This document shows, piece by piece, positions 30,485 to 63,627 of a stretch of 64,000 bases of DNA. The notes under the pieces were generated by a model. It was not told the DNA's origin. It saw only the letters and a program-made list of their open reading frames with translations, and did not search any database. The translations under genes were made by a program, and so were the position numbers. Positions within the stretch are counted from its first letter, which is position 1, and each line of letters begins with the position of its first letter. Source of the stretch: Bolinopsis microptera (Eukaryota > Ctenophora > Tentaculata > Lobata > Bolinopsidae); NCBI RefSeq assembly GCF_026151205.1, contig NC_087081.1, positions 5,017,246 to 5,081,245 of the forward strand, given 5' to 3'.

Positions 30485-31031
30485 TGTATTATTTCCGGAA
30501 TGATCATAGTTTCGATGGCCTTTACAATTTCTGCAATGTTACAATCTATAGGAATTCAAGAAAACAACAATTTCAAGAAAACAACAATTTTTTATTTAAA
30601 TCAATTATAGCAACAATTTGAATAACTTTAAAGTTCTTCTATTACCATGGAATATACTACGGGTATGGTGACTTGGGCTATTGAGTTGTTAAGTAGATTA
30701 AGATTAGTAAACCTGCACTTGCATAGTATTTATAAAAACTAGAAATTAGGCTTCACGGTAAAATGGAGAAGCAGGCTGATCTTGGAGAGAGCAGACCGTA
30801 AAGTTTACGCACCCACCAGGGCTACCTACCTACCCCAGTTGTTCTTTTTGGTTTATCAGCTTGTATTGTTATATTTTAATCTTAAAATAAAATTTAAACT
30901 TTTTATCTACTGGTAGAGCTGGTATTGCACTAACTGGATGCATAAGTTGGTTGTTATTGTTGAATGGTATTTTGATAGTTTTTGTAAATCCTTGAATCGT
31001 AAACCCAGGACCCCCTCCTATAGATATTAGG

Positions 31032-33640
31032 TTGCGGAATAGTAAGGTATTGAATGTTTACTTTCAGAATGTTCAAGGCCTTATTCCCTTCGGTGAGCTT
31101 AATAACGCCCACCCAATGCTTGATAACACCAAATGTCTTGAGCTTTCAACTTATCTTAATGAGGCAAATATAGATATTGCAATACTTAACGAAACTTGGT
31201 TTAAAAAATCCATAGCTGATAGCGAATTCCTGTACCCTGATAGATATAAGATATTTCGCTCTGACAGATCTAAGAAAACTCATCCACCTGATCCCACTAA
31301 TCCGACCCGGTTTAGGAGAAATGGTGGCGGGGTCATGATTGCTGTGAGAGCAGACCTTCAATTATCTTCGAAAGAAATCCGACTTAAAGAGGGGGCAGAG
31401 ATTCTTGCTGTGGAGTTTACAACATCAACGGGTATTAAATTTGTTATCTGTACATGTTATCGTGTTGGTACACTGGGCTTTGCAAATCATGAAAACATTC
31501 TTGGATCTCTGAAAACTCTTCTTCGGAGAAGAGGGCTATGCAAAGTATTCATCCTGGGAGATTTCAACCTGACTGGAGTCTCCTGGTCTACCTTGGCCGG
31601 CTCCTGTAATATTGAGCAGATTTTTGTTGAATCTTTTGTGGACCTTGGCCTTCGGCAATGTGTACTTACAGTTTACACCCACCCATTGCAAAGGCAAAAC
31701 ACTGGACCTTTTGCTCACAAACTCTAAGTCTAATATCAGTGACCTAATGGTAGGTGAGCGAGATAGCGTTTGTAAGTCTGATCATTTTCCAATCAACTTT
31801 AAGATCAACATTAAAGTAAATAGGAAGAAGCCGGTTAAGCGTATGTGCTATAACTGTAAAAACGGGAGAGGCTAAACCATGAACTCCGGCAAACAGATTG
31901 GAATGCATTGCTAAATTGCACAGAACCTGAAATTGGGCGGAAAAAATTTAAGGAAAAACTTTTCAATATCACTGACAAATTCATCAAGAAATGCTCAGTT
32001 AAGACAGATGGACAAGATCCATGGTTTGACTCAGAGTGCTATGGTGCATGGCGCAAGAAAATAAGACTGCATAAAGATAGACATAAAAGCGATAGAGCCC
32101 AAATAGCGTTCTCCCTCGCCAGGAAAAACTTCAAAAATGTGGTTGCTCATAAAATGCGAGAAACATTAAATGAATCAGATGATAGCGCTCTTGTAACAAA
32201 AAAAATCTGGTCATATGTAAAATCAAAAACAGCTAGTCAAAGAATTCCTGAGTTTGTAAGCTACAAAGGCATTGTCCGCAACTGCCCAGAGGACCAGGCC
32301 AACTTATTTAATGGCTTTTTCTACGAGCAGTTCTCTGAAGCATCATTATACAACATAGATATTGATTATTCAAACGATTGGTGCTTTCATATTGCATTTG
32401 ACCACCAAAGGGTCCGCAAAATCCTTTCCAGTATTAACTCTAACAAAGCTTATGGGCCTGATGGTATTCATGGGAAACTTTTTAAAACCTGTGCTGTTGG
32501 GCTTGCATACCCATTATCACTATTATTTCACTCATGTTACAACATTGGGACATTACCTAGGGAGTGGAAACTAGGACACGTTGTACCCATATATAAAAAA
32601 GGTGATAAACATGAGTTTTCAAATGATAGGCCAATATCCCTTACATGCTTAATCACCAAAGTTCTTGAACGCATAATAAAAGATGAGTTACTTGCACTTA
32701 CTAACGGCATGATCAACGATAAACAACACGGTTTTCGAGCTGAAAGATCATGTGCAACTAATCTTTTAGGTCTATGTGACAGCCTAGCTCTCTCACTGAA
32801 TGAAAATATGAGAACAGATGAAGTCTACTTTGATTTTGCCAAAGCTTTTGACTCGGTTAACCATGATCTTATATTATTTAAGCTAAAGAGCAAATTTGGT
32901 ATTGACGGGAGGCTACTGAAATTCATCAATGATTATCTAAGAGACAGGCAACAACAGGTCTTGATAAGTGGTAAGTTTTCTTCTATGAGAAACGCCCAGT
33001 CTGGTTTACCACAAGGGTCAATTTTGGGACCATTGTTGTTCATTATGTTCATTGATGATATATTAGTGGGGATTTCACCAGGCACACAACTGTCACTGTA
33101 TGCCGATGATACTAAAATTTGGCATGAAATTGTTTCGGAGTCTTCAGTCTGATATCCTGCGACTGCAGAAGGACATTGATTATCTCCATGACTGGTCACT
33201 TTCTAATAAAATGAGAGTTCATCCTGACAAATGTAAGGTCCTCACCGTCGCAGGAAGGATATCCGAAACAGTTTCCCTCCTTAGTGTCCTACCACTCTTT
33301 AACTTTGTATGCTCCATGGGAGGAATCGCACTTGACTATGTCGATCATGAAAAGGATTTGGGTGTTGTTGCGAACAAGAATCTCGACTGGCAAGACCAGT
33401 GCTCTAAAGTCCTTTCAAAGGCCAACCAAAAATTAGGCATGGCAAGGAGAAATTGCTATTTTTTTCAAGATGTAAGTCGTCGTCCATAATTTGAGCATTG
33501 CTCAGTTATATGGAGACCGGTCACAAAATCCCAGATAAGCAAGCTGGAGGGCCTCCAAAAGCTATTAAGTGGATTCTTCACGAGGAGTATATGAGTTATT
33601 CACCATCCACATACATTCAAAAATGCAGACAGCTTAAGGG
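31032..33640 (+). pseudogene. LINE ORF2: endonuclease and reverse transcriptase, frameshifted
   Basis: The endonuclease part (31032-31875, two frames) has NVYFQNVQGL, IAILNETWF, FILGDFNLTGVSW and, after the first frame change, LDLLLTNSKSN and KSDHFPINF. These are the usual order of AP-endonuclease motifs in Jockey/CR1-type LINEs. The reverse transcriptase part (about 31900-33152) has VVPIYKKGD, FDFAKAFDSVNHD (motif A), GLPQGSILGPLLF (motif B) and YADDTKIW (motif C). A further frame change near 33130 leads to the thumb region (KDLGVV, SVIWRP). The C-terminal part continues after the fold-back at 34994-35300. The YADD box, with its two catalytic Asp, is intact, but the frame is not. Confidence 0.85.
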
Positions 33641-46455: not shown

Positions 46456-49400
46456 ATGTCGCAGGCTGAGCCGAAAAGGAAGATAACGAATCTAGCACAA
46501 CTTGTAAAGGACAACAAAAGAAAGGGTTTGAGTAAGAGACACAATCTGGTCCTAGATCTGACAGAGGAAGTAAGAACCCTGAGGGCTGAGATCGAGGACG
46601 TTCTATTCTATGTAAGTTAACGCATTTAGACTGCCTTTCTGAACATATCTACTCGAAAATGCAATTCTTTAATATATTTATATGAATCTAACCAAAAGCA
46701 TTTTCTATGATCACTAAATTAGCAGTCCTTTTCAGAGGAACATTTTTTATTTAACAGCAAAAGTTAAATTTGCCTTTTTTTTTCTTTTAGAAAGGAAGTG
46801 GGGAGTGCATACTAAGCATTATAGCCCAAATAAAAAGAGAGCAACAACAGTGTTTGGAGCGAATGGAAGAGTATGATTCGCGATTCGACCGCGAAGATAC
46901 GCCGGAGTCATATTATCGGAAAACTGAGATGTAGAGACAAAGAATAGACCGATTAGAAACTGTGTAGAGAACGTGTCTGAGTGCAGAGGGTGGCCATCTT
47001 CGTTGTCCTAAACAAAAATTTTATGACGCCAATAAAAATCGCAGGATACTTTTCGATCTAGTTTGACAAGACGTCAAGACAATTATAGAAAATTGTCTTT
47101 GTCGATTCGAAAGTTTTGATCGTAAAATGAACAACGAAGATGGCAGAAATCCTTCGAAAAAATTCCCTAAAACATTCAAAATTTCTAAAATTCTCCTACA
47201 TCTTAGGACAACGAAGACACGTTGCAAACAGTTCTACAAGAGCTGTGGCAGGAGCACCATAAGCTGGTCCAACAGTTCGAGGAGTTCATGAGCGACCTGA
47301 CAGTAGACTCTCCTCCTCCTTCTCCTATGTTAGTAGAAGAGACTACACCCACTCCAGAGCATGTACGAGAAGATCGGGCTCAAAGGAGAGTGGAGTGGAA
47401 GTTCAAGAATATTCTCAGTTTTCCGGTTGACGATGATGAGGCTGATAAGGAGTTTGAGAAGGGTGCTAAACCTAATGAGTTTGGCATGTGAGTTTAAGGA
47501 CTTTTCTGTTACTTTCCCAAAGTATGTAGATATTGATTATGTATTAATATCAAAGTATTAAGCTGGATTCTAAAATGAACATCATGATTCGAGCATAAAC
47601 ACTGATGTTCATTTACTATTTGCAGTTTTAGATCATTACCAATTTGAGTAAAAAACGTTTTCAAGTTTGTATTTATGATTGATTAATTTTTGAAGATGCT
47701 ATTTTAGCTTCATTTAGCTTAATGAGAAGGAACTGAAATTAAATTTAGTTGTAAAATTTTTCGTTTCATAACGAAGCTTTAATTTTACTAAAAAATAGTT
47801 TTTGAGTGCATATTTCCTATTGTTGCCAAAGCACAGAAAGCTAATCATTGAATGATTATGAAGCACTGATCATGAAACTGTTACCGACTTAATTAAATCT
47901 CTAAATTGATAACTAATGATACAAAGTAAAATAAGGCAGAGAGGTCTGATATATGATAGAATTGACTAGCGTGATTTAATGGAAAATGAAAACGTAACAT
48001 ACTGATTTAAAGAAGCCTCTCAAATAAGTGGTATAGCATATAGTCTCTTTTACTAAAATTGTCCTCTTCGCACGATCAACTAATTCAAAATAACCAAAAT
48101 GCACCGATCTTATAGTAACATAGTTTCACTAATCCAAGAAAGAATTAAAAGCAGCCAAAATGCATTCAAAAATAGTTTAGTTCCACTAGTGGCAAATGAT
48201 CTCTCCGATAATTAGAAATCTGATCTCTCCGATAATTAGAAATAACTTAGTGCTGCTTACTAAAAGTGTTCAGAACAGCGAGAACAGCAGCACCGCTAAC
48301 CTGAGGAAGGCGATATATGAGCTGTACCTTCAACATTACGAGCTTAAGGAAAAGTGAGTATAAGAGCATCTAGCCCTCATTCCGTTGGTATATTATTCAA
48401 TATTCATCTAGAACAATATGGTACTACCATAATATAGTTATACTATACAACAAAACCACGATTTGTCGCGGATTATTTGGGATAATAGAGGAGCACATAC
48501 CTCGAAAAACAAGCCGGGTTTATGAAGACCTGCACCCGTGATTGTACCTACTGATGAGGGTATTGGATTATAGTGTCACATCCAGGTTGCAGTGGCGCCG
48601 TGCCTGGAACAATGTCTAGCCATTAGACAAAATCCCCCCTCACTTTTATGATGACACACGATAACAGCACTAGGGTTCAAGCCCCTAACTACTCAGTGGC
48701 AGCTAGCTCCCTGTATGACGGGCCCTCCCTAAAACCCCCGGGAGGGGTGGGTCCTGATAGTTGCAGCAACCCTGTTACTACCCTTTTAGTTCGTAGGAAA
48801 ACCCCTTTTCAGGTTAGCACCTTCAACTGTAGGACTCTCAACCCTGTATCACGTAAACAGGAGTTAGCTCACTCAGCCTTCATGCATCATAATGATGTTA
48901 TCTCCTTGCAAGAGCATCGCCAACACCACAAAGAATCCCTAAGAATTGAAAACATCTTATCATATCAGCTCATCACTGCTTCTGCTACGAAGAATTCAGT
49001 TAATGCGTCAGTTGGTGGTGTTGGGTTTCTTTTATCTCCTAGAATTCAGAAATCTCTCCTATCTGTAGAGAAAGTTAATAGCAGAATCATCTTGCTCCAT
49101 GTAAACGGGAATCCTCGCCTCACAGTCCTCTCCTGTTATGCTCCTACTAACTGCAGTGATATTGAAGATAAAACTGCATTCTACAACGCTCTAAACAGGA
49201 TCATCTCTAAGGTGCCTCCTCACAACATGCTAGCAGTGTGCGGTGATTTCAACGCGAAGCTCAGTAATAGCTACGGTTTCACATACCATCAGTCAACCAA
49301 CGACAACGGCGAACGACTACTGGATCTGGTAGACCAACACCAGCTGATAGTTGCTAACCGCTGTTTCCAGAAACCGGCTAATAAAATTTGGACCTATGAA

Positions 49401-52183
49401 GACCCCAAAAGAGCAAAGCATCAAATTGACTTTGTACTCTGGCGTAAGAAGTGGGCAAACAGTGTGAAGAACTGTCAAGCGTACAACATCATGCAAACTG
49501 TCGGTTCAGATCACCGGATTGTAACATGTTTTGTTCAAGCCAGCTACAGAGTCAACAAAACTCCAGCACGGGACCCTCTTAGGAGCATTGACTGGACTCC
49601 ACTGATCCACGATGCCATCATGAAACACCAGTATGCAGTGGAAGTGAAAAACAGGTACAGTGTACTCCTAGAGGAAGCAGAGCTCGAGTCCGACTACGAC
49701 CTGCTCGTTAAAAGCGTTACAAGCACAGCACTTAAGGTGTTGCCAAAAAAGAGGAAGAGGAAACGGGAAAATCCTTACAACGATCCTAATATTGCACACC
49801 ATCGCAATATCCTAAAGGATGCGTCCCTGAGTCACAGGATTTCCCCCTCTTTTTCGTCCAAGGAAAAGCTTGAAGACGCAAAGAAGCAACTGGACGGAGC
49901 CTATAATGCTGCTACTTCACAGCACATTCGACAAAAGACTGACCTGCTGGAGAAAACTAACCCTGAGCACAGGCATCGCAGTTCCTGGCACATCATCAGG
50001 CAACTAACATCTTCCGACACTGTGCCATACTGCAAAGTGCCAGGAGGCACTACCGAAGAACGGCTCAACATCTGGTTCGAGCACTTCAAGTCCCTTCTAG
50101 GCACAGAACAGCCTCCGCCGGACCTCACCCTCCCCTTCTTCAACCAGCGAGTCTCTGACACCCTGCCCATCAGCTGCTCATCCTTCAGCATGTCAGAACT
50201 CGACACGGTTCTGAAGTCCGCCAAATCCTCCAAGTCACCCGGTCTGGATAGCATCCCTCCCTCAGTCTGGAAGCTTCCCCAGCTACGTGAAAACCTCCTC
50301 GGATTCTGTAACAAAGCACTCATGGATGGTGTGATCCCTCAAGCCTGGAAAACGGCCTCAATCATTCCTATCCCCAAAAAGGGTGATCTTACTAATCCAG
50401 GAAACTACCGTGGCATTTCACTGGCACCGGTTGCAGCGAAAGTTTTTAACAAGCTCATCCTCAACCGGATCTACCCATTCATTGATCCCCTCTTGCGGCC
50501 AAACCAAAATGGTTTCCGTAGAGGAAGATCCACACTCCCACAGGTCCTTGCCCTACGTCGTATACTCGAGGAATGCAAGATCGGAAATCGCTCAGCCGCA
50601 ATTGTGTTTGTCGATTTTTCGAAAGCGTTCGACAGCATTAACCGGGATGCCCTTTTCCACATCCTCTCCCTCTACGGTATCCCTGCTCCACTTGTAGATG
50701 CTATCAGGCTTCTTTATGACTCATCGTTCTCTCGTGTCCAGACCATCGACGGCCTTACTGACTTTTTTAGGACACTTATTGGAGTTCTCCAAGGGGACAC
50801 TCTAGCACCCTTTCTCTTCATCATCGTCCTTGACTATGTCCTCAGAAGCTGCATGGGTGAAGAATTCGGTCTTACCATCGTGCCTAGGAAAAGTCGAAGA
50901 GTGCCTGCGGTCAAAATCACAGACCTTGACTTTGCTGATGATTTGGCCTTAATGTCAGACACCATAGAGCAAGTCCAACTTCTGCTGACAGACCTTGAAA
51001 ATGCAGCCGCACAAGTTGGTCTTGCTATGAATGCTTCTAAGACCGAGTTCATGACCTTCAACATCCCTGACACTGTCGACTTACATTCCATCTCAGGCCG
51101 CCAGATTAAACAGGTTGATGACTTTAAATACCTCGGCTCTTTCATTGCGGACAGTAGAAAGGATTTCAACACAAGGAAAGGAATGGCCTGGTCAGCCTGT
51201 ATTAAACTGCAAAAAGTCTGGTCCTCTGGCATTTCCGAACAACTGAAAGTCAAGTTCTTTAGAGCCTGTGTCGAACCAGTATTGCTCTATGGATCAGAGA
51301 CATGGACCATAAACAAGCAGCTTGAGAAGCGCCTCAACGGATGCTACACCCGTCTTTTAATGAAGGCCAAGAACATCTCGTGGAAGAAACATCCAACCCT
51401 CAAGCAGATCTATGGCAACCTTCCATCTATTGCCTCAGTGGTTGCGTCGAGGCGTTCCAGATTTGCTGGGCATTGTATGAGAGCTTCTGACCAAGTTATC
51501 TCCACTATCCTCCCCTGGCGACTTGCCCAATCCGGCCGTGGAAGGAGACCACTCACCTTCCTGGACGTAGTAGCCCGTGACACTGGGCTCCAGTTAGACG
51601 ACCTTCGAACTGTTATGTGCGATCGAGACGTGTGGAGGCAGACAGTGAATGGGATTTCGATTGAGGATCGCCCAAAGTAAAAGTAAGTATTTGGGATAAT
51701 AAACAGCCGCGTTAAATCTGGGTCCGCATTATTATATTATTTATGGGTACTTTAACAAATGTTATCTGATCACTTACAATTCCAAAATTGCAGGTTTGGG
51801 AAGTTTGTTGACCAGATTGACATAGATTCAGCTATATCATCAGAAGGGTTTGAGTATAATCCACCAACTCCCGACCAAGTGAAAGGTGAGAGAACTTAAT
51901 TAAATTTCCAGGACTTTATTTGCAGGTTAAATTTATCTTCAGGATATAGGAATAAACAAAAGTTTTGATTGTGTACGATATGGACGTATTTTAAATTCTG
52001 TAGCATCGACAATAGTCAATTTAAAAAGGTTCGAAGAAGTTTTTATTTATATATTTATACTTAGTGCCTGGTGCTTGTTTAACCTCAGCAACTTTGCAGC
52101 ACATGCTCGACTTCGGAGGATTGAGTTCATCATCAAACGGTTCTTCGTACGACCAAATAACATCGACTAATACAACGATATAA
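46456..52183 (+). CDS. Coiled-coil protein, 244 aa, five exons, RTE element in an intron
   Basis: The exons are 46456-46611, 47207-47487, 48267-48353, 51794-51885 and 52065-52183 (TAA). The phases are 0, 2, 2 and 1, and the total of 735 nt is divisible by three. The N-terminus is basic (KRKITNLAQLVKDNKRK). Heptad-like helices follow (LTEEVRTLRAEIEDVLF, then LQTVLQELWQEHHKLVQQFE), with a Pro/Ser linker (SPPPSPML), another helix (LRKAIYELYLQHYELKEK) and a Ser/Thr-rich tail. There is no signal peptide. Exon 1 can alternatively join 46791-46934 (see that entry). The third intron (48354-51793) holds a full-length RTE-like LINE in the same orientation. The gene is convergent with the RhoGEF. Family not recognised. 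Confidence 0.72.
46791..46934 (+). CDS. Alternative terminal exon giving a 99-aa isoform
   Basis: It follows a strong acceptor (TTTTTTTTCTTTTAG) and begins in phase 0, matching the phase-0 donor at 46611. It runs 47 codons to a TAG. AATAAA at 47031-47036 is about 97 nt past the stop, a normal distance for polyadenylation. Its helix (CILSIIAQIKREQQQCLERM) is similar in pattern to the helix of the competing exon 47207 (TLQTVLQELWQEHHKLVQQF), so the two exons may be old duplicates used as alternatives. A separate two-exon gene sharing the first exon region is the same thing in other words. Confidence 0.6.
   Translation, partial: KGSGECILSIIAQIKREQQQCLERMEEYDSRFDREDTPESYYRKTEM
48474..51701 (+). 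mobile_element. Full-length RTE-like LINE with 14-bp target duplication
   Basis: TATTTGGGATAATA occurs at 48474-48487 and again at 51688-51701 as perfect target-site duplications. The element body is therefore 48488-51687, exactly 3200 bp. It has a 160-base 5' leader, one 1010-codon ORF and almost no 3' untranslated region. The stop is followed only by AAGTAAG, so the 3' end is a short AAGTA-type tail, not poly(A). Short 3' repeats are known in RTE-clade elements. The intact ORF and identical duplications point to a recent insertion. Confidence 0.95.
48648..51680 (+). CDS. RTE-like LINE protein: endonuclease and reverse transcriptase, 1010 aa
   Basis: The apurinic-type endonuclease (about residues 53-300) has VSTFNCRTL, VISLQEHR (catalytic Glu), VCGDFNAKL, HQIDFVLW and GSDHRIVT in the normal order. 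The reverse transcriptase (about 520-830) has IIPIPKKGDLTNPGNYRGIS, FVDFSKAFDSINRD (motif A), LIGVLQGDTLAPFLFII (motif B) and DFADDLALM (motif C, FADD at about 762-765) plus FKYLGSFIAD. The C-terminal domain has GSETWTI, RRSRFAGHCMRAS and a terminal DRDVWRQTV. No gag-like ORF1 precedes it. FADD and the C-terminal block fit the RTE group rather than CR1/L2. All catalytic motifs are intact, so it may be active. The start is the first ATG of an ATGATG pair. Repbase comparison would settle the clade. Confidence 0.95.
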   Translation: MMTHDNSTRVQAPNYSVAASSLYDGPSLKPPGGVGPDSCSNPVTTLLVRRKTPFQVSTFNCRTLNPVSRKQELAHSAFMHHNDVISLQEHRQHHKESLRIENILSYQLITASATKNSVNASVGGVGFLLSPRIQKSLLSVEKVNSRIILLHVNGNPRLTVLSCYAPTNCSDIEDKTAFYNALNRIISKVPPHNMLAVCGDFNAKLSNSYGFTYHQSTNDNGERLLDLVDQHQLIVANRCFQKPANKIWTYEDPKRAKHQIDFVLWRKKWANSVKNCQAYNIMQTVGSDHRIVTCFVQASYRVNKTPARDPLRSIDWTPLIHDAIMKHQYAVEVKNRYSVLLEEAELESDYDLLVKSVTSTALKVLPKKRKRKRENPYNDPNIAHHRNILKDASLSHRISPSFSSKEKLEDAKKQLDGAYNAATSQHIRQKTDLLEKTNPEHRHRSSWHIIRQLTSSDTVPYCKVPGGTTEERLNIWFEHFKSLLGTEQPPPDLTLPFFNQRVSDTLPISCSSFSMSELDTVLKSAKSSKSPGLDSIPPSVWKLPQLRENLLGFCNKALMDGVIPQAWKTASIIPIPKKGDLTNPGNYRGISLAPVAAKVFNKLILNRIYPFIDPLLRPNQNGFRRGRSTLPQVLALRRILEECKIGNRSAAIVFVDFSKAFDSINRDALFHILSLYGIPAPLVDAIRLLYDSSFSRVQTIDGLTDFFRTLIGVLQGDTLAPFLFIIVLDYVLRSCMGEEFGLTIVPRKSRRVPAVKITDLDFADDLALMSDTIEQVQLLLTDLENAAAQVGLAMNASKTEFMTFNIPDTVDLHSISGRQIKQVDDFKYLGSFIADSRKDFNTRKGMAWSACIKLQKVWSSGISEQLKVKFFRACVEPVLLYGSETWTINKQLEKRLNGCYTRLLMKAKNISWKKHPTLKQIYGNLPSIASVVASRRSRFAGHCMRASDQVISTILPWRLAQSGRGRRPLTFLDVVARDTGLQLDDLRTVMCDRDVWRQTVNGISIEDRPK

Positions 52184-53104: not shown

Positions 53105-56100
53105 TCAGCCCGTATCCACTGCGGCGGTGCTGATCATTTTATTAGTCGTATGCTGGAGGACCGGCCCGGTTATCACCGGTCTCTCCGCTTCGGAGGCCAC
53201 CATGGTCGATCTCCGGAACAGTTCCTGGAAGGTACTCGTCCTGTTTGGGTGCCGAGCGGAGGCTTTGGACAGGGACCTAGTCCCCGAGGTGACATGAGGT
53301 GCAGACCGCAGCTTGAGGGGAGGGATGTCTGTGTGGCGGTGTTTCACAGTTGCAGTGCCGTCCACCTGACAGTCTAGTTCAGAGTCGGTGGAGTAGTGGG
53401 AGCAGGAGCTGAGCCTGTTACAGGACACCTTGTTCAGGGACTCAGTTGAGGATTTGGGGGACAGTTTCAGGGGCGAGTTCGTGTTGGCACGTGATCTGTT
53501 GTTGTGTTTCTTACTACTCCGTTTCGTAACCAGTTCTGTCCCCGGGGGCGGATCCTCTTTGGATTTCCAGGGTAATATCCGCTCAAAGAAGCTTCCTCTC
53601 CTCATCCTGACCTCATCCTGCTGCATGACAGTACTCCTCACTACAACCTCGCTATCCCCACCACCACTTCCCACCAACACGCTCTGACTGATAAACTCAA
53701 CATTGGAAACAAGCGACTGAAACGAGCTTCTGATTTTAGTGAGTTTGGTGTTTTTATCCTCGCCCTCGTAGCTGTCCAGTAGTTCCAGGGCCACCTCGTG
53801 GAGGGTGTTGGCGTCTGATGTTAGTTGGTTGAGGGATTGTGGCACGCCTCGTGCTCCTGCTGGTAACTTTCTAGACCCGTAATACTCCTGCATCACCCCT
53901 AGCTGAGGGAGTAACGGGAGGGTAAGATTTACTTTTAGAATTGAAGAAGTTCAGTTAATAATAGCATTAAATCAGGCTATTTAGGTGTGTTTATACACGA
54001 ATATCTCCACGAGTAAAACACTCAATATTAACGCATTGTAATGGTAAAGTTTAATATATCTTACATGCCAAATGCCAATACTACTGCACTCACGCTGTAT
54101 TAAACCGTAACACTAAAATCTACTTTAAAACCTACTTTGTAAGTTAGAAGCGTGAAAATCTGCGCGTCAGTTTTGTCGAGACGCTGTTGGAACGTCGGAG
54201 CCGTACTTTCGTTGCTTTCTGTGGGAAATTTACTGTGGTTACGGTTACTAGGGTAGTTACTGTGGTTACAGTTACTTGTGTAGTTACTGTGGTTGCCATT
54301 ACTAGGGTATTTACTGTGGTTGCGGTTACTATGGAATTTACTGTAGTTACGATTACTTGGGTAGTTACTGTGGTTACGGTTACTTGGGGATTTTCTGTGG
54401 TTACTGGAGTTACTAGGGTATTTACTATGGTTACTGAGTGTTGCTATAGTTACTTGGGTACAATATGAACACTAAATTGTCTCAGTTTTGTCTGCTTATA
54501 ATTTGTCTAACAGTTAAAGATCTTCTTTGTTAACCCATCTATATAACCTGTCAAAAATTACATATCCTGTCAAAAGTCACTAGTTTACCCCCTACTCACA
54601 CACTGCCACTACATTTAAACAGAAAGCAGGACCTCTATTAGTCACGTGACAGATAAAGTCTGATCTCCCGAGTCACGTGATAATAGGACACAGAGCCAAG
54701 TTGTCTGCGGAGAGGAGATCTAGTACAAGCTCCAGTGCCTGACTAGAAGAGTTAAACACCATGTTATATAGTCTCCAGACACCAGACACACAGGGATTAG
54801 GGCTAACAAAGGATCAGCGTGACAACCCACGTGATCAGCATGACAACCCACGTGATCAGCATGACAACCCACGTGATCAGCATGACAACCCACGTGATCA
54901 GCATGACAACCCACGTGATCAGCATGACAACCCACGTGATCAGCATGACAACCCACGTGATCAGCATGACAACCCACGTGATCAGCATGACAACCCACGT
55001 GATCAGCATGACAACCCACGTGATCAGCATGACAACCCACGTGATCAGCATGACAACCCACGTGATCAGCATGACAACCCACGTGATCAGCATGACAACC
55101 CACGTGATCAGCGTGACAACCCACGTGACAAAGGGCCCTGTGCTAGACATTCTGTTGCTTCTTTATTTGGTCACACATATTCATGTTTAACAAAGCTGTT
55201 CAAAGAACCCTGCGTTTTAACATGAGCTAGACATAGTGTCTGTGGAGAGTAAAGTCAGAGTATGAGGGTTACAAGATCCAGGGTTCTAGACACGACAATC
55301 GTACACTTGGTGGTCATCACTGGCTGTCAGGTACATGGTAGTCCAGGGTACAACCCAAATATCGGCTTCCTTTTTGTCTGTATAACATGTTGTATGTTTC
55401 CGTGTTCAATAGAAACTATGATTATTATATACGCGCACGTACGAACAGATACCTCAAGAAGTGCATGCGATATAACTGGTACATAGTTTTCTCTCAATGA
55501 TAAATAGATAAATAGAAAGTTTTCTCGCGGTGATAAATACATAAAAGACAAATTATACCTTGACTCTTGTCTCATATGTATGATATGACTAAGTCGGAAT
55601 CGTCCTGCATGGATATGATTCCAGTACTATTTGATAACAATAATAACCAGTAGAAGTCATACTTAAGATAAGACTACCCTTACTAACTGAGTAACTCATT
55701 TCAGATGTAGCTTTCTTAAGTTTGTAACCATTTAAACTGCTACTTCAGATTTAATGTCTATGTGTTTAATGATGATATTAATCAATAGAATTAAGAGTAC
55801 TACTTTAGAAAAAACCTCCTTGTGTTTGAAAGCAATGCTAACCGGTGCAATAACTAGTAATATTTCAAATAAAACTTCTTAGTGTTTGAAAGTAATACTA
55901 ACCGGTGGAATTGCTACTTTGGAGCTCGAAGTCCCCTCCTCGCTGGTCGATCGAGACACTGGATCTTTCGTCATCTGAAAGGAAATATCTGTCGCTAGTT
56001 TTAGACGGTCCGGTATCACTTATATAAGGGTTTGAAAAAGAGTGGGATGTGTAGCTGATACATAAGATAAACCTAAAGAAATACTGAGAGAGCAGGATAG

Positions 56101-59100
56101 AATAAGGAGTCGGAATATTAACAGATATAATGTAGGATATGGTAGGTTCATGCACAGTGCATATTCAAGCCTTTTAATTTTTTATCAAATATGTGTGCAT
56201 ATTGAGATCAGGTTATTTGTGCACAATGCACATTGAGATCAGGTTATTAGTGCACATTGAGATCAGGTTATTAGTGCACATAGCGTATCAGGTAGGTCTG
56301 TACTAGGAGCAGCTGAGACTGCCCCTAGTCAGACTGACTTCAAATTCAGAGGTTATGGGATATTAAAACGTGCGAGGAGTATATAGCTAATAGCTATATA
56401 TATACATATCACCGGAGACTCGCGGGCGGAACAAAATATTGCACGCGCACGCGCGTGCAATATTTCATATGTCCCCGAGGGCGCTAGCCCGAGGAGGACA
56501 TATTTTCGTATAGCACGGAGGGCCCATCGGGCCCGAGTGCTATACGATTTTTCCGCCCGCGGGTCGAGGTGATGTGGATTATATCCACCAGCGGGCGTAT
56601 TACAGTTAATATATAATTTTATAAATAAACAATGGAGCTTGTATAAAAGTCAACTATAGAAAAAGGTCGCCACTAATTGTAGTAACCATGGTAACACGTC
56701 ACGTGTTCAATGTAAGCCAATCATAAAGGGCTGTGTCGTATATAGGGGCTGGAGATGCACTGCATTCCTGGGCCGTGGGAATAATGAATGTATTATGTCA
56801 GTGACGATGAATATCAATAATATAGGGGGATTATAGTGCTGATGTGTATTATCATGTAGTGTGTTATAATAACTTTGATATATATCAAAGTATCATGTCA
56901 TCTGCTCACGAGCTGCATGAGCAGCCCTACCGGACACAAAAATAAAATGTATATAATATAGTCAGTGTAATAAGGAATTTCACATGGAGACGATACAGAA
57001 ACTGAAAATATTTTAGAGAACTCCGGGCTATATTGCTACTGGTCAAATTAAATGTCACTTGTTAGCGGGCTATATCATGAGCGGGCTGTAGAGATATCGG
57101 GCCCTTTGACAGCGGGCTGGTGAGAGCCCGCTATGCGAAAAAGCGCACGCTGGTGGATATATAGCTATATAGGTTTTCCTATTGTTCAGGTAGCCTGGAC
57201 TTGTGCGGCCGTGATGCACAAATGTGGCGAGGATGCAACGTAGGATCAGACCGGAATCCGGACAAAAGTTTTGAATTCCAATGGTTGGTACGTATTCATA
57301 AAGTTCGGGAGAAAGAGAGGGAGAGAGAGAGGAAGGAATTTTAAAGACTAATATTGTAAACATATGTTGATGTTGATATAAGTATTGCTGAATCTGCGGA
57401 AAGAAACCGGGCGTATATTTAATAGTTTAATACACATTTGTTGTGCTGGGTAATTTTTTTCGGAAGCTAAAATCTGAAAAAAAAGTGATGGGAAAATTGT
57501 GCTGTTAATAATAGCTATCTCGCCGAAGAGTAAGGGGCTATGTTTGAAGCCGGAATTAACAGCTTTTTATAACGCTTTATATATCAGTCACTTACATACA
57601 TACAATCAAATTGATCCTCTGAAAAAAGTTCCTTCAAACTGATGAACTCGAAGAAGGAGTGCATGAATAGATGCATGACATGTGTAGTTTTTTAGTGGTG
57701 GGTACAAATAACAGATCCGCCTTGAAGTTGTTGTGAAATTCATTTAAGAAAGTCTATATTTGCATATCATTTATATGCCCGAATTTCCCAAGCTCGACAT
57801 TAATTCATCCTACGTAGTTTGACCCCTTGATGTTTGACCCAAACCTAACTGTTATCAAACGTTACCTTGCACCTAGACCTCACCCAGATCATAACAAAAT
57901 AACAAATTGTTGCTGCCCCCTCCCTCACTGGCCCCCAGTGCTGCTGGGACAGATCTGTTATTTGTACACCAAACTGCCCCTCTAAAACCGGTGAAGAGAA
58001 TTCAAACGTGAGACGCATCAGTTATAGTGAGTATATGCGCAAGAAGATTCAAACTTAAGTAAATCGTCACTCTAAGAAAGTCACCTAAAGTCAATATTTC
58101 CCCAGTAAAGCTTACCTTCGTTGGGTATTGACGGGGGTCGGTTTCGTTCGTGGACTTGTGCCACTTCCAGGTCTAGGAATTCGACGACAGGCTTCACTTT
58201 TACCTCCTTGTTTTTAGCTCTTTCCAAAGTTTGAGACAGACTGCGGCAGATAAAGATTTCAGAATTCGTATAACATGACTTTTGATTTAGTAACTGCACT
58301 CATGAGTTGCTGAACAGTAGGGATTTGTAAACAAAGTCTAGCTACCATACTCACATTTTACATTCTTCTTCAGTCTTGCAGATTATAGGACATATCAACG
58401 GCATAGCTTTTGATATCAGGTAAAATGACTTGGATTCCTGTTTGTCAGCGGATATCAAAACATCTTCCTGGTCCACCGCTGCAAATAGCACAATTTACAT
58501 CAGAAGCTGTCTCTCACGGTGTTACATTACCTTATATGGCGTGGAGACCTGTGAAAAACCTGACAAAGTAGCCCAAATTCGGAGCTAAATTATCCTGTTA
58601 CGTATAATTGACGTGCAATGTCGCTAGTGCCCATGGAATTCCTCGAGCTACCAAATATAGGAGTACATTGTGCCGACTAGTCGTCATGTCCTCTCGGACG
58701 TGTGCCCACGGAAAATATCTGCCACATCGACACGCGTAACAGTTTGCCGGGTCACAGATTTGACGTCAAATCTCCATCAGTGTTGAAAGTTATGGTAAAA
58801 AATCTCCCGATCGATATATAATATATGTTTTTTTCGGGTATGAAATCGTGGGAGAAGGTCTTCAGATTTGTACTGTGAAGGATATTCCTAGGTTGACATT
58901 AAGAGTGAAATATATTTAACATTAACATAATTCACACGACCATTACATACCTATGACTCTTGTGAATTTCTCTATGTGAGTATCGGCGGGAGGGGCTGAT
59001 GAGTAGAGGAATGCTCGGTCGTTCGGGAACAGTACGATGAACTTCTCAAATAGAACCAGATTAACCTGATAATTATACATACGTTATAATTATGATAATC

Positions 59101-62100
59101 ATAATCATAATAATCATAATTATACTTCTTAGACAATATACATGGGATAATCTCTAGAAAAGAATGACAACACTTTCTTCTCTCACACTTTGTGGGTATA
59201 AATGATGACTTGAAAATACACAGTACAATCACAGCTCCACCAATCAGCCCATCCTCACTTTCATTAAGTTTACTTGGTTACGTCAGTCTCGACAAAGTTT
59301 GCAAATACTTCTCGCTAATGACATAGGTATGATAAACTGGATATCATTTAGTCCAGGTTATCGCTAAATGCGATGGGCGTTCGCACAAGGAAACAGACAA
59401 TTTGTTAGGGACTAGGGGAGGGAATGGGGGCGGGGATGCTCGAGGAGAGGGGCGGGGATGCTCGAGGAGAGGGGCGATGTTATCAGGATTACTTATTGTT
59501 AGGGACTAGGGAAGGAATGGGGGCGGGGATGCTCGAGGAGAGGGGCGATGTTATCAGGGGAGGGAATGGGGGCGGGGATGCTCGAGGAGAGGGGCGATGT
59601 TATTAGGGGAGGGAATGGGGGCGGGGATGCTCGAGGAGAGGGGCGATGTTATCAGGGGAGGGAATGGGGGCGGGGATGCTCGAGGAGAGGGGAGATGTTA
59701 TCAGGGGAGGGAATGGTGGCGGGGATGCTCGAGGAGAGGGGCGATGTTATCAGGGGAGGGAATGGGGGCGGTGGATGCTCGAGGAGAGGGGCGATTTTAT
59801 CAGGGGAGGGAATGGGGGCGGGGATGCTCGAGGAGAGGGGCGATGTTATCAGGGGAGGGAATGGGGGCGGGGATGCTCGAGGAGAGGGGCGATGTTATCA
59901 GGGGAGGGAATGGGGGCGGGGATGCTCGAGGAGAGGGGCGATGTTAGGGACTAGGTGAGGGAATGGTGGTGGGGATGCTCGAGGAGAGGGGCGATGTTAT
60001 CAGGGGAGGGAATGGGGGCGGGGATGCTCGAGGAGAGGGGCGATGTTAGGGACTAGGTGAGGGAATGGTGGTGGGGATGCTCGAGGAGAGGGGCGATGTT
60101 ATCAGGGGAGGGAATGGGGGCGGGGATGCTCGAGGAGAGGGGCGATGTTAGGGACTAGGTGAGGGAATGGGGGCGGGGATGCTGGAGGAGAGAGGCGATG
60201 TTATCAGGATTACTTATTAGCTGTTCTATCAGAGTATCAGAGCATGTTTAAAGTTTTGTTAGCGCAACTTACGTCGAGTTTCACGTCGTCACAGTACACT
60301 GGCATATTGAGGATTACCTCACCGATCTCTCTATTCATGTCCTCTGCTAACAATCGAGCCCGGGCTGACTTTTCTATTCTCTGTGATTCAGCACGAGCAA
60401 CTTCTTTGTTTATACTGAGATAAGATTAGTTCAGTCGACCTAAATTATAACATTTCTGAGCCTTATTCGGCTCAGGATTTCATTGATTCTTAAATGTGTT
60501 TACATGTTAACGGTGAAATGAGCTTACCACAGTCCACACTTATTATTACATAGATATCATGGATATGACGCTAGAACATTCCTTAGAGTACTGTAAATCA
60601 TAATGAAACCTCATTATTCATAACAGATAAATTTTTATAAATTATTGTTCAACATGAAGTAGACAGATAATTACTTTGAGCAAATGTCTTTGATCTTTTC
60701 TAAACATTCTGTCATTCGATTGTGTTCTTCTGTGGCAGTTTTCGTGTATTTATGTATCTGAAAATATGGAATTTAGTTTCAGGCTGAATAAAAAACGTGC
60801 GATGAGTGGAAAATATTTGAACAGACCTTAATTTCAAAAATAAATTCAGCTACAAAATACAAATTAATGTTTGTACAACAGAAAATAATAAATGAACACT
60901 ACGCAACAAAAAAAACATGCCACCCGCAACAATGGAGACATAATATAGTGGAAACACATGGTAACACATGGTAACACATGGTAACACATGGTAACACATG
61001 GTAACACATGGTAACACATGGTAACACATGGTAACACATGGTAACACATGGTAACACAACAGTGCAACAAAGTTTTACCTGCTGTATTAGGAGGGGGTAT
61101 TTTGTGACCCGTTGCATGGGGTTGGGAAGCAGCTCCTTTAAATGTTTCCTCCTGCACTGTGGGTTTGATTCACATTCCAGCAGAAACGCTGCAAAGTCTG
61201 TGTTTCTCATTTTCTCCTGAATTATTTAGCTTAAAATATCGATACAAGAACTTGAAATAAAAGTTTTTAAAACTAATTAAAATCAAAATTTTGAAAAATT
61301 CCAAATTTGGCTAAAGTTAAAAAATTATTTATCAAAGAAAAATAGTTTTTAGACTTTACCTTTAAAACCATCAAGGAATCCGTTAAATTTATACAATATT
61401 TAACTATTTCCTTCTCGAATTCAGGATTTGAGAGAAACTTTGAGATATAAGGTCCTATAGAGTCAACGTATTCATTTGAGCCTTGTAAGCTCACCAAATC
61501 GTTTTTAAAACCCCCTGAAAATCAATTTTATAGTGAGCTATTTTCCATAAACCGTGACGGTGACAAAATAAGGATTAATTGGTCACGTAATAAAGGAGCA
61601 ATTAAGAAAATGGTATGAGAATATTTAAAATTTTATTTGGGTTTATTTCTGGACATTGGCTTTTGTGCCAACTCAAAAGATATTAACCAGAACTAATAAA
61701 ATTGAGCAACAGCATAAAAATAAAGTGTAGAATTCAGTCTCGACTTACGATGCAGATCTACTAAAGACGAAAGGTTGAGGAATATTCTATTTGATAAGGC
61801 TGAATTTATAATGCTGTGGGTTTCCAACGGTTCTTGGTATGCCTGAAGATATTTGTCTTTAGATGGAATGAAATTATTTTATTACTATTTAAATTTTATT
61901 TCATGGAATTTGAAAGATTTAAGCACAAAAAACTGTCAGTTTCAAACCTTTTGGAGAAGTAAAAGGCATCTCAGGAAAGTTTTCTCAGTGTGGATGAATT
62001 CTGCTATAACATCTTGTCGTTTGATGTCATGGGTAGACAGTGAACTCTGAAACATTAGTTGATTTAAGCTCTTGTTATCGTAACGTGGATTTCTAGATTG

Positions 62101-63627
62101 AGGTAACTCATTACTATTAGCTATTCTAATAATAAAAGACTACATGTTTTTTGTCCCTGACCAGTCGTTCACCGGCCCCTAACCGGCCCCTAACCGGTCA
62201 CTAACCAGCCACTAACCGGCCACCAATCAGCCACTAACCAGCCACTAACCAGCCACTAACCAGCCACTAACCGGCCACTAACGGGTCACTTACCGTTGGG
62301 AACCTGGCAGACCAAGGTCGGTTCTCATCCTCCACATCAAAGTCACTGTCCACACCGCTCAGGATGAACTCCTGGTGGGACTTCAACGTGGATGACTGGC
62401 TCGCGTTGTCAACTGAGTTGGATCGTCGGAGCGCTGAAACGAGGCAAGGTTTAGAATAAGAGATTAGTGAAAGTCCGCGGTGCCGTGGATTTGATGAACA
62501 GGTTTTAATTGTATTCATCTACAATGTTATCGACGGTAGCATATTAAGATATCAAATTTAGAATAAAACGTATTTTTATCAAATTAATCCAGACCTGTCA
62601 TAAATTGAACTAAAATATGAAAAAAACTAACGTATTCAAAAAGGAACATTCAGATCCAAATTTAAATCGTCTAAATAAAAAAGAAAATAAAGACGCACAT
62701 CGTGGCAGGGGAGGAATAGAAGTAGATCCCTCGCTCTGAGCCCTATACAAAATAAAATTACAAGAGTATCTTTTGTTGATTGCCATGCTGGCCATGCCCT
62801 GGCAGGGAGTCAAATACGGCCGGTTTGACGACAGTGAATCTGCAGGACCGTGTGTTATGTAACCAGCTCCATATGGATAATAACGGAGCTGAAGAACCAG
62901 TACTCTAGTAGCTAATTACAGCGTGTCAATTCAAAGAACCGTGTATCTGTGGTGGTCTGTAGGAGTTATACCACGTTATGGGTGCGTTCAATTAGGCATC
63001 TAATTTATCCTAATTGATCCAATTAAGGAGGTTGGTGCGGCCAATCAGGTGCTCTGGAAGAGGAAAATAACAGGCTGGTCTGGTGCTGTACCACAACCAA
63101 TTCCACACGAGGTTCAGGTTTATTATAATGTGGACGAAAATAAGCTTGTATTTTAGAATTTCTATCTTGGTTTGCTTCTAGAATTTCTATCTTGGTTTGC
63201 TTATAATTGAGGCAGTTTAAACGCTGTCTTTAGTTTAATATAATCTTTCCAGTGCTGCCCATGTCAGAACTGAGTTGCAGTTTCAAGATCGATTGTAAAA
63301 TGTAACAAATAATATGTCAACAAATAATAATCTATCAGATCAAACTATAATACTTCATGGCTTAACCCAATCTTAATTAAATCATTCAATCTAAATAACA
63401 TCACTACCATGTAGCGGAAGAGGCTTCTCCTCAGCGATCGTCAGCAAACACTCCGCACTGCGCGCCTGTTTGGCCTGATAGAAACTCATCTTCTTCTTCT
63501 TGCTCCTTCTCTTGATCATCATGGTCACTCTTCTTGTCAGATACCCCAGGACCCTCCCTAGCCTGTACTCCTCTACGTAGGATAAGTGTACTAGCAAGCT
63601 GGACCAGAGGGAGGACAACTTCAACAT
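53105..63627 (-). CDS. Dbl-family RhoGEF (DH-PH), 766 aa, 13 exons
   Basis: The exons on the minus strand are 63408-63627, 62294-62433, 61948-62046, 61749-61842, 61360-61514, 61079-61216, 60675-60757, 60273-60414, 58951-59065, 58355-58478, 58116-58240, 55903-55974 and 53105-53898. All are GT-AG with matching phases, 2301 nt in total. A DH domain (about residues 125-313) opens KRQDVIAEFIHTEKTFLRC and has the CR3 helix NPQCRRKHLKELLPNPMQRV followed by TKYPLL. A PH domain follows (about 330-445: LVLFEKFIVLFPNDRAFLY to the C-terminal helix TEEECKILSQTLERA). DH-PH proteins exchange GDP for GTP on Rho-family GTPases at membranes. The motif spacing resembles the Lbc/LARG group, which acts on RhoA (inference). 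The N-terminus has a basic run (KRRSKKKK). The 265-residue tail is Ser-rich and basic, without a PDZ or RGS domain. Several introns carry minisatellites. The start is supported by an in-frame ATG only. Confidence 0.92.
54235..54465 (+). repeat. Degenerate minisatellite built on GGTTACNNTTACTNGGGTA
   Basis: About 8-10 imperfect units of 18-30 bp based on TACTGTGGTTACGGTTACT, in intron 12 of the RhoGEF gene. It shares the GGTTACTAG core with the 26.9-kb array. Confidence 0.8.
54640..54683. promoter_or_regulatory. Two E-boxes (TCACGTGA) beside the E-box satellite
   Basis: GTCACGTGAC (about 54641-54650) is a full 10-base palindrome that matches the MITF/TFE-type (CLEAR) E-box. AGTCACGTGAT follows at about 54672. 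Both lie in intron 12 of the RhoGEF gene, some 150 bp from the E-box satellite. A regulatory role is inference. Confidence 0.4.
54820..55132. repeat. 21-bp minisatellite with one CACGTG E-box per unit
   Basis: About 15 nearly identical units of GACAACCCACGTGATCAGCA plus T. The unit contains CACGTG (E-box) overlapping TGATCA. The unit length is a multiple of three and has no stop in several frames, which creates long chance ORFs on both strands. It lies in intron 12 of the RhoGEF gene. Confidence 0.97.
56170..56292 (+). repeat. Short repeat GTGCACATTGAGATCAGGTTATTA
   Basis: About four copies of a 24-bp unit (CATTGAGATCAGGTTATT with GTGCACA), the last ones degenerate, in the intron between RhoGEF exons 58116-58240 and 55903-55974. 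Confidence 0.8.
56400..57170. repeat. Palindrome-dense GC-punctuated element with nested hairpins
   Basis: An outer stem (CGCGGGCGGAA near 56421-56431 with TTCCGCCCGCG near 56551-56561) encloses three strong hairpins. H1 is AATATTGCACGCGC...GCGTGCAATATT (56435-56464). H2 is ATATGTCC...GGACATAT (about 56467-56503), with an inner GGGC/GCCC stem. H3 is CGTATAGCAC...GTGCTATACG (about 56508-56547), with GGGCCC in its stem. TATATCCACCAGCG (about 56580-56594) recurs inverted at about 57146-57160, so a longer element may be bounded there. Further hairpins such as AGCGGGCT...AGCCCGCT lie at 57111-57132. No ORF is supported. It lies in a RhoGEF intron. Confidence 0.75.
59408..60210 (+). repeat. 49-bp G-rich minisatellite, about 15 units
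   Basis: The unit is GGAATGGGGGCGGGGATGCT followed by CGAGGAGAGGGGCGATGTTA and TCAGGGGAG. Some units end GGGACTAGGTGA instead, and these alternate in the right third as a higher-order repeat. The plus strand is very G-rich, with several runs of four or five G per unit. It lies in the intron between RhoGEF exons 60273-60414 and 58951-59065. Long ORFs across it are artefacts. Confidence 0.96.
60954..61058 (+). repeat. 10-bp minisatellite, unit GGTAACACAT, about 10 units
   Basis: Pure tandem units of GGTAACACAT. On the gene strand the array begins about 20 bases after the donor of RhoGEF exon 61079-61216. Confidence 0.96.
62160..62293 (-). repeat. 11-bp minisatellite made of donor-like units at a RhoGEF splice site
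   Basis: Read on the gene (minus) strand from the exon boundary, the sequence is GTAAGTGACCC and then about ten units of GTTAGTGGCTG, with variants GTTAGTGGCCG, GTTAGTGACCG and GTTAGGGGCCG. The real donor of exon 62294-62433 is therefore the first unit, in exact 11-base register. The far units decay toward GTGAACGACTG. Confidence 0.95.

Follow-up and report, generated by a model that had tools for sequence, protein, structure and literature searches.

A minisatellite headed by a splice donor in a RhoGEF gene of the ctenophore Bolinopsis microptera and its possible anchoring at the exon border

The analysed stretch of the Bolinopsis microptera genome (contig NC_087081.1, 64,000 nucleotides, referred to as the window) carries on its minus strand a RhoGEF gene of 13 modelled exons. 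Exon 1 (63408–63627) starts with ATG, ends at CATG|GTAGTGATG and joins exons 2 and 3 in an open frame. Exon 2 (62294–62433) ends in phase 0 with CCAACG and is followed by the 247-bp intron 2 (62047–62293), about half of which is occupied by a tandem array, and by exon 3 (61948–62046), which begins with AGT, likewise in phase 0. The ten exons 4–13 with their introns extend over 54136–61842 and include the RhoGEF and PH domains. Exons 2–13, twelve in number, combine into a single open frame of 456 codons, with which exon 1 is also in frame, and a Pfam search with the joined frame returned RhoGEF (5.7e-36) and PH_16 (8e-6). On the gene strand the 3′ end of exon 2 reads TTCCCAACG and the intron opens with GTAAGTGACCC, the donor G being located at 62293. 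The earlier note had placed an exon end ACG and this intron opening at the same position, which is borne out by the reading frame and the RhoGEF domain; the donor is supported because the 456-codon frame runs over 12 exons and contains this domain. Two more tandem arrays of the gene reach close to acceptors, one (54228–54434) ending 9 bp from that of exon 13 and the other (59069–59124) 3 bp from that of exon 9. On the plus strand of the window, two retrotransposon-like regions (30996–33149 and 48627–51677) show Pfam matches to endonuclease and reverse transcriptase.

The donor of exon 2 is at the same time the first unit of the array (unit 1, GTAAGTGACCC, 62283–62293, minus strand). Units 2–11 (62173–62282, consensus GTTAGTGGCTG) follow without any indel, starting at 62282, 62271 and so on down to 62183 in an unbroken 11-base register, and match the consensus at 10, 11, 11, 11, 11, 8, 11, 9, 9 and 9 of 11 positions. 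Two decayed units (62151–62172) starting at 62172 (7/11) and 62161 (6/11) keep the register. The approximately ten in-register copies described in the earlier note, whose range 62160–62433 comprises exon 2 plus the array, were thus recovered as ten units of the GTTAGTGGCTG type and two decayed ones. Tandem Repeats Finder (TRF) delimits the array to 62171–62282 (10.2 copies, 89% matches) and therefore leaves the donor unit out of its count. Unit 1 is identical to the consensus at 7/11, to unit 2 at 8/11 and to unit 9 at 9/11 positions; the four 11-mers upstream of it reach 3/11 each. Among the 127,978 11-mers of the window (both strands, array included) 829 (0.65%) attain 7/11. Five of the seven consensus matches of unit 1 are provided by the GTAAGT donor alone, and 3 of the 46 GTAAGT sites of the window, the RhoGEF donor included, match some unit at four of the other five bases. 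Taken by itself, unit 1 is modest evidence for a kinship between donor and array, and the RhoGEF locus considered alone gives moderate evidence for a register beyond chance. At +3 the donor has A where the array body has T; the body is thus no straightforward copy of the donor.

A homology search with exon 2 plus the array as query against the genome (264,652,675 bases in 232 contigs, very common words skipped) yielded one full match; the other 45 among the 46 matches listed cover the array part only, with 70–84% identity. No second copy of the RhoGEF intron is found among these 46 matches under these settings. Nor are there near-identical intron copies among them of the kind demanded by an introner, and this reading was rejected. 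Many of the equal-scoring matches may belong to a common palindrome-rich repeat composed of GGCTAGTAGCC and GGTTAGTAGCC units, as seen in loci L024 and L029. Locus L067 (1–585) harbours an array with a period of 33 bp (17.5 copies) that includes GGTCACGTGA and lies about 0.8 kb from an 11-bp array.

The donor-headed layout recurs in three further genes of Bolinopsis microptera. In INPP1 (L007), exon 1 ends at GCATG|GTAAGTTAATT, followed by seven copies of GTTAGTTAATT and by ATTAGTTAATT, altogether 9 units of 11 bp; units 1 and 2 agree at 10/11 positions, and an alignment of the joined protein to inositol polyphosphate 1-phosphatase (E 1.7e-9) extends over the junction. The second gene, with 12-bp units, is present as a pair of paralogues on contig 10 (L045/L060 and L061; 16.57 and 16.67 Mb). 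Its exon ends with GCAGATG and its intron opens with GTAAGTGTGGCA, which heads 246 units (copy A) or 191 units (copy B), itself included, all in one register and with the same head. No Pfam match was obtained for this gene; its next exon is in frame in both paralogues, and units 1 and 2 agree at 11/12 positions. Since the two arrays contain 8 and 9 GTAAGT units, respectively (head included), decoys with a strong core are not absent. In the third gene (L068), the exon ends with ATG and the intron reads GTCAGTAGTCTT followed by GTTAGTCTT twice, both exons being open in one frame. The number of exon bases continuing the unit upstream of +1 is 1, 0, 0 and 0 in the four genes, the single base being the −1 G of the RhoGEF gene. 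Bodies carry T at +3, and the used donors A in three of the four genes and C in one. As unit sequence and length differ between the four genes, we read them as separate origins. In locus L068 (1–801), one exon is flanked by an array on either side, with CTAACC-rich units reaching up to the acceptor (CTCTCTCCCGCAG) and the short GTTAGTCTT array at the donor.

Pairing with U1 RNA, whose 5′ end is canonical in the two loci read (ACTTACCTG), was calculated to compare each used donor with a typical body unit, and the used donor is superior in all four genes: −10.1 and −6.3 kcal/mol in the RhoGEF gene (typical units range from −6.3 to −6.5), −9.1 and −1.5 in INPP1, −11.0 and −3.6 in the 12-bp gene, and −6.6 and −1.5 in L068. 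The exon 2 donor is also the strongest among the 12 donors scored in the RhoGEF gene. A typical body unit outpairs 5 of these 12 real donors, though unit 2 (−2.9) falls short of all 12. Moreover, exon 12 of the same gene ends, by frame, at a GTTAGT donor (ACCG|GTTAGTATT, 55894–55902, minus strand). Both observations make the body units plausible decoys and agree with the earlier claim that each unit repeats a usable donor core. The consequences of their use were predicted by translation. With any of units 2–12 as donor, the modelled part meets its first stop between index 54 and 63, either within the added stretch or, out of frame, shortly beyond it, so that translation would end before any RhoGEF residue. 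In INPP1 all eight alternative units lead to a stop, and in the 12-bp gene one of the five translated alternatives is open, namely unit 2, which would add four in-frame residues, whereas units 3 to 6 lead to a stop. Many of the early stops arise because GTTAG contains TAG. The prediction in the earlier note of isoforms extended in 11-nt steps is hence correct in its arithmetic, but productive isoforms of this kind are not borne out by the translations of units 2–12; likewise, an array that resupplies donors, as also suggested there, would mostly yield non-functional mRNA.

The further donors emerged from genome searches. A search for a GGTAAGT head followed by a GTTAGT body with periods of 8–13 gave 17 places, of which 16 were inspected and one, a simple repeat, was left out. 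Under a simple rule eight of the 16 are true heads, two of them (L040 and L046) in irregular arrays, and four of the eight are the named donors, from three genes. Another search also gave 17 places, and inspection of 11 besides the window revealed one further donor, that of INPP1. The A/T contrast at +3 is built into the head search, whose pattern fixed this position as A for the head and as T for the body. A control with C at +3 returned 13 places and was not cleanly negative; among its three loci other than simple repeats, L068 is donor-headed and L002 and L039 lie within arrays, indicating that the letter of the head is not special. Exon readings of L028, L031, L053, L063, L065, L068 and L069 are based on the frame or on our own recognition. 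Examined from the side of the arrays, none of 12 GTTAGT arrays taken in listing order starts at a recognisable donor, and among 13 arrays whose sense-strand units read AG|GTAAGT none heads a recognised exon. In the genome, the 11-bp GTTAGT pattern is matched 1319 times and its reversal 48 times; of the 100 matches listed, about two thirds come from one large GTTAGTTACTA/GTTAGTCACTA array on contig 3 (ca. 2.3828–2.3916 Mb). Two generalisations were discarded: a general enrichment of donor-like 11-bp arrays, as GTRAGT (1151 matches) is only slightly above its reversed control (946), and the idea that only weak bodies survive at donors, as the counts compared (0/13 for AG|GTAAGT and 4/8 for GTTAGT heads, from three genes) stem from different patterns and small sets.

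The register between donor and array was assessed in the whole genome by searching GGTAAGT followed, at gaps of 0–10, by two GTTAGT motifs 11 bases apart. Six places were found, four of them at the in-register gap of 5. Two of these four (L008 and L010) lie within arrays, where the register is trivial; the count of 4/6 (P = 9e-4) was therefore abandoned in favour of the fairer one outside arrays, 2/4, with P = 0.044 against an expectation of 1/11, which includes the RhoGEF discovery locus and falls to 1/3 without it. Outside arrays, RhoGEF and INPP1 are in register at real donors and two places are off: L038, with a gap of 6, by our reading about 110 bp into an intron, and L069 (469–530), with a gap of 10. 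At L069 the donor AAGAGG|GTAAGT is real by frame, according to our reading, and a GTTAGTAACCA array begins 16 bp after +1 out of register, and arrays can therefore occur next to donors that do not head them. On its own the register test carries little weight, and the identity between first and later units in the other genes is the better argument.

Arrays were also encountered beside acceptors. A mirror search (GGTTAGT head, GTAAGT body) gave 20 places, of which five loci were inspected, the others being simple repeats or belonging to an array on contig 6. In four of the five, an array reading antisense adjoins an acceptor, by exon readings with weak or no Pfam support, and the A of CTAAC is positioned 16, 19, 20 and 17 nt from the exon. 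Pfam gave no convincing match for L028, L053, L063 and L065 and matches below the curated cut-offs for L062 (IQ, 6.7e-4), L064 (Zip, 0.005), L027 (kinase, 0.0069) and L047 (zinc finger, 0.19); the Tudor match of L006 (8.7e-6) exceeds its cut-off. Within the RhoGEF gene, intron 2 array left out, three of seven arrays are located at most 20 bp from a junction (0.43 expected, P = 0.005) and two within 10 bp (0.23 expected, P = 0.018), as compared with random placement in the same introns and with cut-offs chosen after seeing the distances. Three of the 12 GTTAGT arrays in listing order are, by our reading, 6, 16 and 39 bp away from an acceptor. These small and partly chosen samples are suggestive of a tendency of arrays to adjoin splice junctions. 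In the Tudor-domain gene (L005 and L006, contig 3, ca. 1.494–1.496 Mb), two introns end in a common cassette, a GTTAGTAACCA array followed by a RGTTTCCTCCCCAG acceptor, and in one intron about 26 bp around the exon start are duplicated before the array. The cassette looks like an array-plus-acceptor piece copied between introns.

On this basis we lean, by a narrow balance of probability, towards a minisatellite in the intron that is anchored on its left at the splice donor and held there by selection, with decoys following behind. The array's first in-register unit is the donor hexamer, the exon side has no share in the repetition, and the layout recurs in three genes with other unit sequences. 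Slippage or unequal exchange may have started the array, involving the donor (GTAAGT at +1) and a donor-like GTTAGT one unit downstream; in this scheme the array is anchored on the left by the donor, while the second motif serves as the template for the body and would account for its T at +3. The ends of the array would escape homogenisation, as in the amphioxus mirages discussed below, and selection would keep the end unit strong while the body core is weaker. U1 should choose unit 1, as it is both the strongest and the one closest to the exon, and if a body unit were used on rare occasions, a frameshift or a stop would result, with loss of the mRNA. The array is most likely tolerated sequence rather than a device. 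Several findings stand against an anchored origin: unit 1 of the RhoGEF gene (7/11) has little in common with the body outside the donor core, the L069 array is near a donor but out of register, the register amounts to 1/3 without the discovery locus, and none of the 12 GTTAGT and 13 AG|GTAAGT arrays starts at a recognised donor. In addition, the +3 contrast is built into the search, with L068 emerging from the C-at-+3 control, and the array-like stretches of 70–84% identity among the matches listed imply that the body may come from elsewhere.

Alternatively, 11-bp minisatellites of a common type may often lie near intron ends and one of them may happen to begin a unit after a normal donor, without any common descent, so that the likeness of unit 1 would be confined to the GT-AGT core which any donor would share. 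The limited identity of unit 1, the start of the TRF array at unit 2, the frequency of GTTAGT arrays (dominated, in the matches listed, by the one on contig 3), the L069 array and the array-like stretches elsewhere all accord with such a coincidence. It leaves unaccounted for, however, the agreement of unit 1 with the body at 10/11 in INPP1 and 11/12 in the 12-bp gene as well as the register in two of four places outside arrays, and we consider it rather improbable. It might also be that the array is older and that the intron border shifted to its first unit, where selection then established A at +3. Such a capture would fit the T at +3 of the bodies, the A (three genes) or C (one gene) of the used donors and the capability of GTTAGT to act as a donor in the RhoGEF gene; exons 2 and 3 join in frame, and no finding counts directly against it. 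We regard it as unlikely, and seeding of the array by the donor, likewise considered in the earlier note, as perhaps the more probable of the two. A regulatory role, in which tandem weak donors compete with unit 1 and array length sets the unproductive share of mRNA, or in which additional U1 binding strengthens the exon, could draw on the pairing of typical units, better than that of 5 of the 12 gene donors, and on the early stops of all RhoGEF alternatives tested, as in unproductive splicing. But the 246 units reached in another gene point to indifference more than to tuning, which renders this role distinctly improbable. Finally, tandem arrays are error-prone in assemblies; given the 12-exon open frame with RhoGEF and PH domains, a wrong gene model or an assembly error would come as a great surprise.

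Extending the anchored minisatellite, we may speculate that in this ctenophore splice signals act as anchors for the growth of satellites into introns, donors heading sense arrays and the last unit of an antisense array supplying, with its CTAAC, the branch point of the acceptor. We hold this wider view to be possible yet doubtful. If it is true, introns would fill up from the ends inward with copies of the splice signals they carry, and the spliceosome would have to pick the end unit from up to 246 near copies. The genes described form a natural series of 3 to 246 units after one true donor, including two similar paralogues 55 units apart, which could serve for testing the fidelity of the spliceosome to the first donor and the seeding of tandem repeats by splice signals. 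Gene-finders are also cautioned that the end of an exon may coincide with the first unit of a satellite.

Donor-bearing repeats have a human counterpart in a minisatellite that is said to belong to the interferon-induced gene 6-16 (IFI6/G1P3). According to the title of the original report (Turri, Cuin and Porter 1995, NAR 23:1854, cited in PMC2572611 and PMC2915984), multiple donors of this minisatellite serve a transcript. The RhoGEF array would resemble it in being positioned at an exon end with units containing a donor core; in contrast to the several donors serving the transcript there, the later RhoGEF units, if used, are predicted to break the frame. Intron gain by tandem duplication (PMC4974935 and PMC2812944) and introners (PMC9860276) likewise involve splice signals repeated or created by DNA duplication, but the RhoGEF intron gives no sign of being new and seems to be an existing one that was enlarged. 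The introner paper (PMC9860276) gave no match to ctenophore, Ctenophora, metazoa or Mnemiopsis, and a search for literature combining a ctenophore or Bolinopsis genome, a tandem repeat and an intron found none.

In position, the closest resemblance is to the mirages of amphioxus (Adh3 and globin genes). These are characterised, in the relevant passages of PMC3087553, as minisatellites at exon-intron boundaries, on either exon side, with repeated splice signals; copy-number differences, the exclusion of cluster ends from homogenisation and regular splicing are reported there as well. An end unit unlike the homogenised body is a feature of the RhoGEF array, too. Differences in copy number (246 versus 191 units) were seen between the paralogues of the 12-bp gene only, the RhoGEF intron being single among the 46 matches listed. 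According to the same passages, mirage units of 10–160 bp span the boundary and include exon sequence, whereas units of the RhoGEF type start at intron +1 with at most one exon base continuing the unit, and identity upstream is 3/11. This exon-spanning feature is absent from the RhoGEF array, and since the repeat stops at the exon edge within a base, the four genes are set apart from the mirages described there. Judged by sequence features, the RhoGEF array would thus combine a donor-bearing repeat as in 6-16 with a position as in the mirages, and these two systems are probably its nearest precedents.
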